This document shows, in pieces, positions 14,040 through 32,416 of a DNA stretch of 64,000 bases (position 1 is its first letter; each line of letters starts with the position of its first letter). The DNA is from an uncultured Eubacteriales bacterium (GTDB lineage Bacteria; Bacillota; Clostridia; Peptostreptococcales; Anaerovoracaceae). A program made the translations under genes and the position numbers. Below the pieces are notes generated by a model that saw nothing but the letters and a program-made list of their open reading frames with translations, was not told where the DNA came from and did no database searches. The DNA lies in contig CADABZ010000001.1 of assembly GCA_902786355.1 (NCBI GenBank), forward strand, positions 176,795 through 240,794. The letters run 5' to 3'.

Positions 14040-14362
14040 AATAAGAAACGGGCAGACTATAAGCCGGGTTCTGTATTTGACGATCATCCATCTAGCACTG
14101 CGGTTGCCCGCAGCATCAAGCGACTCACCTTCGGGCGGGTACGGGCCGCACCCACAGATGCCCTTCTCAGTCTTGCTCCGGATGGGGTTTACACGGCTGC
14201 TGTGTCTCCACAGCACCGGTGAGCTCTTACCTCACCATTTCAACCTTACCACGGCATTACCCGTTTCGGCGGAATGTTTCTGTTGCACTTTCCCTACAGT
14301 TACCTGCGGCGGACCTTTCCTCATGCCATACGGCACGCGACCGTCTGGTCTACCCATTTCCA
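14040..14362 (-). ncRNA. rnpB: RNase P RNA, bacterial type A
   Basis: Catalytic RNA that trims the 5' ends of tRNA precursors. On the minus strand the P1 helix strands GAAATGGGTAGAC (14348-14360) and GTCTGCCCGTTTC (14045-14057) pair over 13 bp. In between are GAGGAAAGGTCC, GGGAAAGTGCAACAGAAA, AAGGTTGAAATGGTGAGGTA with AGAGCTCACCGG, and near the 3' end AACAGAACCCGGCTTATAG-like sequence, all conserved landmarks. This layout is type A, as in Clostridia rather than Bacilli. A T-rich tract (GGTTTTTTT) follows at the 3' end, and a near-consensus promoter lies just upstream. Confidence 0.97.
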
Positions 14363-30159: not shown

Positions 30160-30177
30160 AGCAGTTCACCAGTAAAA

Positions 30178-30203
30178 AAGCGGCTTCCTGTAAGGAGCCG
30201 CTT
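30178..30203 (-). terminator. Intrinsic terminator after the pyrophosphatase-like gene
   Basis: As minus-strand RNA, AGCGGCTCC pairs with GGAAGCCGCT (about 9 bp, one G-U pair) and is followed by TTTTTTAC. It closes the secG plus pyrophosphatase-like transcript before buk. Confidence 0.85.
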
Positions 30204-30247: not shown

Positions 30248-32053
30248 TTAGAACAAAAATCCTCCTATCCTTATAAAGACAGGGAGAAATGCGGCTGAAA
30301 ACACTGTCATCATCTTGATGACAGATGAAAGTGACTGAATAGCTGTATTCTCAAAATGTCTTCCTGAATTATTGAAACCGGTAACGATGAAGTATCCGCA
30401 GGATATGACCGCTACAAGGAAGCCTGCAAGAGTTGCCGGTCCGAACAGAAGCCCTACAACTGTAGGGAGAGCTATAGCGATAACAACAGGAAGAGCCGCA
30501 CCTCTGAGAGAGCTTGCAGAGCCTGTCTCATCATCACTTCTTCCCATATCTCTGCGGGCAACACGTCCTGTTACATGAACAGAACCGATGATTATACCGG
30601 TCAGAACAAATGCGCTGCATGTACCGACAATAATACCCGCGAACACTCTGAGAGCCATGATGTCTATAGATTCAACCTCGCTGGAAACAGCAAAGGCTGT
30701 GAACAGAGCCAGCGCCGCAGTGAATCCTGCAGCTGTTCTGTAGGATCTGGACATTATTCCAGTCCTGTCTGATATCACTGCTGCTGCATCTGACATTCTG
30801 GCTTTGTCTGAGTCATCATCTTCATCAGTGATAGTTGATGAAATAATATCTGATGTCTCGCCTGACAGAACAGAAAGTCCGGTCACTCCGGATGATGCTG
30901 CTGTGAGAGAACACATTCCGGCAGCACAGAGTGCAAGTCCGTAGAAGTTTGCGAAGTTGAACGAAACAACGATAGCAGAAAGCACGATGATCGCAGTGAA
31001 AGCAGTCGAGATCATGCCGCTGCCCATATTGAAAATAACGACTGAATGTCTTCCGAGATTCTTTCCTGCTCCTTTGAACACCCTGCTGTCAGGTGAGAAG
31101 AATCTGTTGACCAGAGCGAGTATGATGCCGGCAAGCATGCCGGTGCCTGCTGCGTAAGCATATACAAAGCTCTGCATCATAACATTGCTGAAATATGCGC
31201 ATACAGCAGCGGCGATGACAGCTGCTGCGATAACTCCGATAAGAGAACCCTTCGATGCGTCATTGCCGATGCCGGCTTTCTGCAGGAATATACCGACTAC
31301 AGAACCGACCATACCAGCAGCGTACACAACTATTATGAATCTTGCTGCAGCACCATGAGTGAAAGTCGATGTGACACCGGATGCAGCTACAGCAACATCA
31401 GCGAGCATGATCGTTGCTGCTGCTGACAGGATGTATGATTCTGCTATATCTGAACCCGCTGCTGTGAAGAATCCCGATCTGTCTGTAAAATCGCCGGATG
31501 GAGCTGCAAGAGCGTAAGCCGATGAATATACATCTCCTCCCGTATGAAGCAGAGCTGCAGTAACAGAGCCGCCGAGAGCAAAGCTGCCGGCAAGCGCCAT
31601 AACAGTCTCAGTCTTCATGAACTGGAAGACTGCCAGAAGAACTGCAGTTACCAGTGCAGATATACATAAACCAAGCACAGCGCCGGTTCTGTAGGATGCT
31701 TTGATAGATGTCCTGATATCTGAAGCGTCAGCACTGCTGTGTGAAGCAACAGAGCCGGCTACATAGGAAAGTGATCCGATATAGACCGAAGCTAATGTGA
31801 CTATGCCGCCCGCAAGACATGCTGCTGCATTCATCCATCCGATACCAAGCCCTGAAGCGATCACAACAAGGAGCAGAAAAGCAATAGCAGGGATGTAGTG
31901 AAATCCCCAGAAATTGTTGTTCCTGCTCTTGATTATCCCGTACAGCTTAGCAGTTTCTTCGCCTGTCCCTCTCCTGCTTCTGATCCATGAAGAGAGGAAA
32001 AAAGCAGTCGCTGCTGCTGCAATTATACATATCAGTGAAACAATCTTATACAT
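30248..32053 (-). CDS. Membrane pyrophosphatase-like protein lacking the catalytic motifs
   Basis: A 601-residue protein with about 14-16 hydrophobic helices whose order of segments matches membrane H+/Na+-translocating pyrophosphatases: ASYRTGAVLGLCISALV, YAAGMVGSVVGIF, FNMGSGMISTAFTAIIVL, LYGIALA-like FYGLALCAAGM and the C-terminal LPVVIAIALPTVVGLLFGP. True enzymes carry DVGADLVGKVE, DNVGDNVGD, DNAGGIAE and GDTVGDP for Mg-pyrophosphate binding. Here these places read GGDVYSSAYALAAPSGDFTD then FFTAAGSDIAESY (about 172-207), LSVLSGETSDIISS (about 393-406) and a C-terminus without GDTVGDP. The nucleotide-like acidic pocket is therefore lost. Energy-coupled pyrophosphate hydrolysis is unlikely; its real role is unknown. 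It follows secG after about 30 bases. Confidence 0.75.
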   Translation of the reverse strand: MYKIVSLICIIAAAATAFFLSSWIRSRRGTGEETAKLYGIIKSRNNNFWGFHYIPAIAFLLLVVIASGLGIGWMNAAACLAGGIVTLASVYIGSLSYVAGSVASHSSADASDIRTSIKASYRTGAVLGLCISALVTAVLLAVFQFMKTETVMALAGSFALGGSVTAALLHTGGDVYSSAYALAAPSGDFTDRSGFFTAAGSDIAESYILSAAATIMLADVAVAASGVTSTFTHGAAARFIIVVYAAGMVGSVVGIFLQKAGIGNDASKGSLIGVIAAAVIAAAVCAYFSNVMMQSFVYAYAAGTGMLAGIILALVNRFFSPDSRVFKGAGKNLGRHSVVIFNMGSGMISTAFTAIIVLSAIVVSFNFANFYGLALCAAGMCSLTAASSGVTGLSVLSGETSDIISSTITDEDDDSDKARMSDAAAVISDRTGIMSRSYRTAAGFTAALALFTAFAVSSEVESIDIMALRVFAGIIVGTCSAFVLTGIIIGSVHVTGRVARRDMGRSDDETGSASSLRGAALPVVIAIALPTVVGLLFGPATLAGFLVAVISCGYFIVTGFNNSGRHFENTAIQSLSSVIKMMTVFSAAFLPVFIRIGGFLF

Positions 32054-32083: not shown

Positions 32084-32317
32084 TCAGTTGAAAATCGCAA
32101 CGATAGCAAGTGAAACAATAATATAAATGATAGCTGAAACTGTGGTGATCTTGGCAAGAACAGCATCATATCCTCTGCTCTTGCGCTTGCCGAAAAGCTG
32201 CTCAGCACCGCCTGCGATGGAGCCTGAAAGTCCGTCACTGTTACCTGCCTGAAGCAGAATGCTGATGATAAGAATGACACTTGCCACAAGAAGAATTATC
32301 ATTAAAGCTGTATGCAT
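32084..32317 (-). CDS. secG: Preprotein translocase subunit SecG
   Basis: Small SecYEG subunit (77 residues) with two membrane helices: one N-terminal (LMIILLVASVILIISILLQ) and one C-terminal (TTVSAIIYIIVSLAIVAIF). Between them is the conserved loop SIAGGAEQLFGKRKSRGYDAVLAKIT. The start is ATG at 32317 with GGAGG 5 bases upstream; a TTG 12 bases further up overlaps the ribosome site. It lies downstream of gap-pgk-tpi, a normal clostridial position, but has its own strong promoter with a large palindrome at the start of the transcript. Confidence 0.93.
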   Translation of the reverse strand: MHTALMIILLVASVILIISILLQAGNSDGLSGSIAGGAEQLFGKRKSRGYDAVLAKITTVSAIIYIIVSLAIVAIFN

Positions 32318-32348
32318 AGCTTCCTCCAAATCTGTTTAAAATAGAACT

Positions 32349-32387
32349 AAAGTGTTCGATTCTGTAATCCGCAAAATCGAACACTTT
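32349..32387 (-). promoter_or_regulatory. 13-bp palindrome at the start of the secG transcript
   Basis: A perfect inverted repeat (AAAGTGTTCGATT / AATCGAACACTTT) with a 13-base loop. One arm touches the -10 box of the secG promoter, so the palindrome spans the transcription start and the first bases of the mRNA. No T tract follows. It may be an operator, a 5' stabilising hairpin, or a weak terminator for tpi. Confidence 0.55.
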
Positions 32388-32416
32388 ATAATAACACTCA
32401 GATTATGGTGTGTCAA
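32388..32416 (-). promoter_or_regulatory. Near-consensus promoter of secG
   Basis: On the minus strand TTGACA (32411-32416), 17 bases, then TATTAT (32388-32393) preceded by TGT (extended -10). The -35 box begins 7 bases after the tpi stop codon. Confidence 0.82.

Follow-up and report, generated by a model that had tools for sequence, protein, structure and literature searches.

What use does a bacterium have for the body of a membrane pyrophosphatase (mPPase) after the catalytic pocket has gone? This question was raised by a gene in a 64,000-nucleotide stretch of DNA (hereafter the window; contig CADABZ010000001.1, positions 176,795 to 240,794) from an uncultured Eubacteriales bacterium of the family Anaerovoracaceae. 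The gene lies at 30248..32053 on the reverse strand, directly after secG. An earlier note, made from the sequence alone, described it as a relative of the H+/Na+-pumping pyrophosphatases that had lost its pocket, and proposed a new function as a channel, a transporter or a Sec-associated membrane protein. Our leading but still tentative interpretation is that it encodes a non-hydrolytic descendant of a secG-linked mPPase, whose membrane body would most likely pass Na+ or H+ without pyrophosphate.

The degenerate mPPase of the window

The gene is a single open frame of 601 amino acids, and the frame, strand and boundaries of the earlier note were correct. The sole Pfam match of the protein was H_PPase (PF03030), at 108.8 bits against a cut-off of 29.7, and orthologues were found in related genomes. 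None of the 11 listed NCBIfam models for sodium- or H+-translocating pyrophosphatases reached its equivalog cut-off (best 130.6 bits, cut-off 546). The predicted structure, computed for the monomer only like our other models, was an mPPase fold of good confidence. By our helix assignment on this model all 16 membrane helices were retained. Chance resemblance to mPPases was ruled out by the profile and fold scores. The window protein belongs to PF03030 through its ancestry and fold rather than its function, and a match to this family alone is no proof of pyrophosphatase activity.

The earlier note had advised looking for a second, intact hppA in the genome. One was found on contig C17 (L001, 705 amino acids, 908 bits) and served as the reference for deletions. 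Compared with this copy, motif 1 of the window protein was gone from the third residue onward, motif 3 was replaced and the last catalytic motif was deleted, bearing out the loss of the pocket. Alignment and model placed the shortening in three loops, with all positions on the reverse strand. Loop 5-6 lacked 20 residues including most of motif 1 (remnant residues 184-192, 31478..31504), loop 13-14 lacked 18 (residues 503-519, 30497..30547), and loop 15-16 lacked 33 including the last catalytic motif (junction residues 566-573, 30335..30358). The deletions are larger and better ordered than the stretch of about 15 residues that had been reported around the second motif. The loss of all four acidic motifs also held only in part; most of the Asp and Lys ligands of pyrophosphate and Mg were deleted or replaced, but one Asp of motif 2, the middle one (D191, 31481..31483), stays in the alignment, in 39/39 copies of the main genus set.

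The gene did not behave as a decaying pseudogene, as had been supposed from its intact frame. The ratio of nonsynonymous to synonymous change (dN/dS, NG86 method) was 0.040-0.188 in the 30 closest pairs of copies and 0.070-0.214 in eight of nine chosen pairs, one of which is also among the 30; the ninth (G167-G177) had saturated dS. Synonymous change was near saturation in many pairs, which makes the values rough, but none nears 1. As far as such estimates reach, they showed that the protein is under purifying selection, and pseudogenization was ruled out by dN/dS together with retained length. A decaying gene under relaxed constraint might be suspected from the faster evolution of the window copy (0.115 against G157, compared with 0.027-0.086 for five neighbouring genes), from the broken 5' part of one copy in 41 (G172) and from the shortening of the G149 copy to 499 amino acids. 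With dN/dS far below 1 and 36 of the 41 copies at 598-609 amino acids (the exceptions are G149, G172 and three copies truncated at contig ends), we regard this as very improbable. For the broken 5' part in G172 (L048, G172:C155), either a genuine loss or a fault of assembly could be responsible.

Distribution and recurrence of the loss

The window protein was matched in 44 of the 47 genomes of its genus, and a degenerate copy was assigned to 41 of them, the window included. These copies follow tpiA and secG (tpiA-secG-[gene]); pgk usually precedes this group and buk-pheS-pheT follows it, within the reach of the contigs; the loss is common to the secG-linked copies of relatives, a point that the earlier note had left to a survey. 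Two genomes (G082 and G190) carried an intact copy beside secG and no degenerate one, G168 had a copy adjoining pheS that seemed intact over the part read, and G170 had only an unlinked intact copy. G150 and G162 gave no match.

Of 40 degenerate loci fetched, 38 had secG immediately upstream, as did the gene of the window; the remaining two end at a contig edge. secG was also directly upstream in 24/24 intact loci counted (2 in the genus, 22 in the family), a count that leaves out the unlinked intact copies of the genus. Because intact mPPases adjoin secG in this way, the linkage is ancestral, and therefore an intact enzyme probably once stood at this locus and was altered in place. The reading of the earlier note as a whole was accordingly supported in part: the lost pocket, the lack of decay and the sharing of the loss stood, whereas secG as a pointer to a Sec role did not.

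The same locus was degenerate in other genera. In genus g5, five genomes (G330, G391, G093, G425 and G432) carried a copy of 552-602 amino acids with loops 5-6 and 15-16 cut, beside secG in four cases and ending near a contig edge in the fifth. The intact form occupied this place in the six other g5 genomes read (G004, G142, G291, G320, G333 and G405). A model of the g5 copy was also an mPPase fold, at lower confidence than the window protein. Two secG-linked copies of genus g49 (L138, G118:C43; L139, G048:C44) kept the loops with substituted catalytic motifs, and the copy of G025 (genus g26) was strongly altered. Within the window's genus, the early-branching copies of G148 (L084) and G149 (L085) had deletion patterns unlike the rest, G148 keeping loop 5-6 with altered motifs; the loss may therefore have happened there more than once.

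A species tree was built from four proteins of 57 genomes, 34 of them labelled degenerate, without G330 and G425. The degenerate label required four changes, all forced by starred branches; the tree was made by a quick method with midpoint root, had 27 of 57 rows under half filled and did not distinguish gains from reversals, and G356, G071 and G397 were labelled intact although each has motif changes. A single origin of all degenerate copies was not favoured. In the protein tree the degenerate copies of the genus fell on one side of a branch with SH-aLRT 100; protein trees leave the origins unsettled, as the program flags meeting long branches and two g5 rows have a branch length of 10. These comparisons showed that the predicted catalytic site was lost at a single locus in two or more genera; the count of degenerate lineages is a minimum.

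Several copies in other genomes were less clear. In genus g72, two secG-linked copies had mild substitutions (L181 in G397, L036 in G071) and one was split over two frames (L182 in G450); each of these genomes had a second strong PF03030 match elsewhere, and the genus may show early stages of loss. In the secG-linked mPPase L137 (G356:C16), motif 2 was short by one DNVG repeat, and the remaining motifs were all present.

In the wider order and class surveys, which cover the matches listed, a degenerate copy may have been overlooked where an intact one is also present. With profile A1 over 393 genomes of the order, all 23 matches above 600 bits were in the window's genus, and the next was G356 at 354 bits. 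Nine genomes of the order and family were picked for weak scores: seven had matches running into contig ends, G299 had none, and G443 had a whole frame of 739 residues (L208, G443:C6). L208 and the nearly whole L207 (G215:C125) had divergent motifs 1 and 2 and low scores (610 and 650 bits), and may be either another mPPase type or further degenerate copies. In the family 302 of 349 genomes had a match, and, besides the genus itself, 37 were followed up among the matches listed, chosen because their matches were weak or multiple or their A1 scores low. In the class, 242 of 392 genomes at least 95% complete had a match, and among the matches listed six had a best E value weaker than 1e-150: G093, three contig-end pieces, G660 (split by a frame break and a stop) and the marginal G726.

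Close relatives of the G179 copy were found in 18 named records, from Mogibacterium sp. (8) and (uncultured) Clostridiales bacterium (10), several of them from sheep, goat or horse. These came from the genus-relative query; the window protein as query over the same contig scan gave no relative. No account of a catalytically lost mPPase was met in the literature searched, which was covered by titles and openings of abstracts with subscription papers mostly outside its scope.

Retained gate residues and possible functions

Among 45 intact copies 269 sites were invariant, with one exception allowed. These were compared with 35 complete genus copies and five g5 copies, a site counting as kept at 85% or more of the former and 4/5 of the latter. 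Only 21 of the 269 were kept in both degenerate lineages. Of 38 charged invariant sites, 20 of which lie outside the deleted loops, just two were kept, at the places of Vigna D294 and K742. We take these to be D6.50 and K16.50 of the ion gate. By the same presumed numbering, the alignment places D202 (6.50), E205 (6.53) and S206 (6.54) at 31436..31450 and K580 (16.50) at 30314..30316, all on the reverse strand. In G148 and G149, which were kept out of this count, the D294 place is filled by Glu and Asp and the K742 place by Lys; among G118, G048 and G025, Asp was present in 3/3 and Lys in 2/3. PMC10897367 describes an ion site made up of E6.53/57, D6.50, S6.54 and D/N16.46, which K16.50 enters and leaves. 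Of the gate residues D6.50, E6.53, S6.54, D/N16.46 and K16.50, four of five are present in the window protein, 16.46 being Ser576.

This residue pattern favours a channel or transporter, as judged from conservation. In the explanation we propose, the protein descends from a secG-linked mPPase; sequence and model show that its fold is kept, its pyrophosphate/Mg site broken up and its sequence under purifying selection. Selection would retain the membrane body and the ion path around D202, E205, S206 and K580, and the protein would most likely let Na+ or H+ pass independently of pyrophosphate, whether it acts as a carrier, as a gated leak or as a sensor that depends on ions. Pyrophosphate itself would be handled by a soluble family II enzyme and, in most species, by a separate intact mPPase. 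The bolder form, in which a pump was turned more than once into such a channel or carrier by trimming the catalytic loops and keeping the gate Asp-Lys pair, we hold to be possible but doubtful.

Several observations weigh against ion passage. The window gate is incomplete, with Ser576 instead of Asn at 16.46 and His170 at Arg 5.50. Lys 16.50 is absent in 4 of the 35 genus copies (2 Ile, 2 Asn), and Glu 6.53 in 7 of the 35 and in all five g5 copies, three of which have Asp. Eleven of the 21 doubly kept sites are Gly, and the two gate residues could be kept for packing. Conservation is not concentrated on the ion path (mean 0.575 for the six inner-ring helices against 0.553 for the ten outer ones); among the listed segments, loop 6-7 alone exceeds its conservation in the intact copies by a clear margin (window residues 217-232; 0.682 against 0.512). 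The copies also diverge fast, with 28-78% identity among genus matches spanning the protein, and the gate reading of the Asp-Lys pair was formed after the data were seen.

Other functions have to be weighed against the same evidence. A structural or chaperone role at the Sec translocon, with the helical body binding SecYEG or SecG and no longer moving ions, would agree with the presence of secG beside every assessable copy, and the shorter gap to secG gives a mild hint, with a median of 35.5 bases against 107.5 in intact copies. This difference is weak, because first possible start codons were used and the copies are related. The adjacency is inherited, as all intact loci counted share it, and the kept gate Asp and Lys would be left unexplained; a Sec role was not accepted from gene order, and we consider it unlikely. 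The protein could also sense or bind another ligand in a remodelled cytosolic face, through D191 and the NNSG/loop 15-16 remnant. The invariance of D191 in the main set and the good conservation of N562 and G564 are consistent with this, but D191 is kept in 0/5 g5 copies and loop 11-12 is the least conserved segment, making such a sensor distinctly unlikely. Hardly probable at all is a pyrophosphatase still active with ligands at shifted positions. In its favour, D191 stays, 22 of the 39 main copies retain the first Asp of motif 2, and one alignment has an acid near the Vigna D691 place (D in 26/39, E in 9/39, E in the window). Against it, a second alignment gave no match there (0/35), the deleted loops are those that carry most of the Lys and Asp ligands, and in the window protein Gly replaces the first Asp of motif 2.

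A regulatory or heterodimeric subunit of an intact mPPase was also considered, mPPases being homodimers according to PMC10897367. Another PF03030 match above 500 bits was present in 36 of the 41 genus genomes with a degenerate copy (in G186 as two pieces). None was found in the other five (G157, G177, G185, G188 and G191) or in any of the five g5 genomes; these are draft assemblies, which may miss genes, though G177, G188, G093 and G330 are 96%, 93%, 99% and 97% complete. Nor is the second copy of one type. Among 18 unlinked genus copies of the L001 type compared with L001, 16 were 92-97% identical to it and the other two 69%. The ten genomes in which no other copy was found weaken the case for a heterodimer, as far as draft assemblies allow, and we judge it rather improbable.

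For pyrophosphate removal, the DHHA2 domain of family II soluble pyrophosphatase was matched in 20 of 25 genomes examined, including all 13 with a genus-type or g5-type degenerate copy; it was not matched in G320, G405, G048, G118 and G065. Family I soluble pyrophosphatase was matched in 0/25. The DHHA2 frames were 539-594 amino acids long in 17 of 20, which suggests the CBS-regulated type. G118 (90% complete) had no other PF03030, no PF02833 and no PF00719 match.

If ion passage is confirmed, the protein would be a new class of ion-conducting membrane protein, derived from a pump that lost its motor. A natural protein with gate residues but without the hydrolytic site would separate gating from hydrolysis, and recurrent loss at one locus lets one ask what use a non-pumping pump body has. 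The coupling of the mPPase gate to hydrolysis is still being modelled, according to PMC10897367.

The locus and comparison with known enzymes

The neighbour secG (81 amino acids, 32084..32329, reverse strand; Pfam SecG 68.3 bits), which had been noted as a partner, is co-directional and lies 30 bases upstream of the gene. The gene had also been credited with its own terminator. A hairpin with a U-run does follow it (30172..30203, reverse strand), with a fold z of -2.5 equalled by 3 of 200 shuffles, but it was not listed by the consensus terminator scan. Upstream of secG the consensus scan placed a promoter-like site (TTGACA-17-TATTAT, 32388..32416, reverse strand), one of four such sites found, a number not above shuffles (mean 4.8). 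This site is touched by a 17-pair hairpin between tpiA and secG (32348-32388, fold z -6.2), which is probably the tpiA terminator, or perhaps an attenuator of secG. Elsewhere in the window, Rfam matches gave an RNase P RNA class A at 14045-14356 and a cobalamin riboswitch at 584-777, both on the reverse strand.

Compared with the K+-dependent, Na+-pumping enzyme of T. maritima (TmPPase, PDB 4av3), the window protein shows 20% identity, lacks the hydrolytic loops and, at 601 residues, is shorter than the PDB sequence with its 735. The intact L001 of its own genome belongs to the same Pfam family and is 25% identical to it. The intact secG-linked mPPases of the family (L037 in G082, L092 in G060) are placed identically after secG, and in G082 the whole order gap-pgk-tpiA-secG-hppA-pheS-pheT is common with the window. 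These enzymes are 672-673 amino acids long with the catalytic motifs present, whereas the window copy has 601, and they share 30% identity with it across window residues 189-570.
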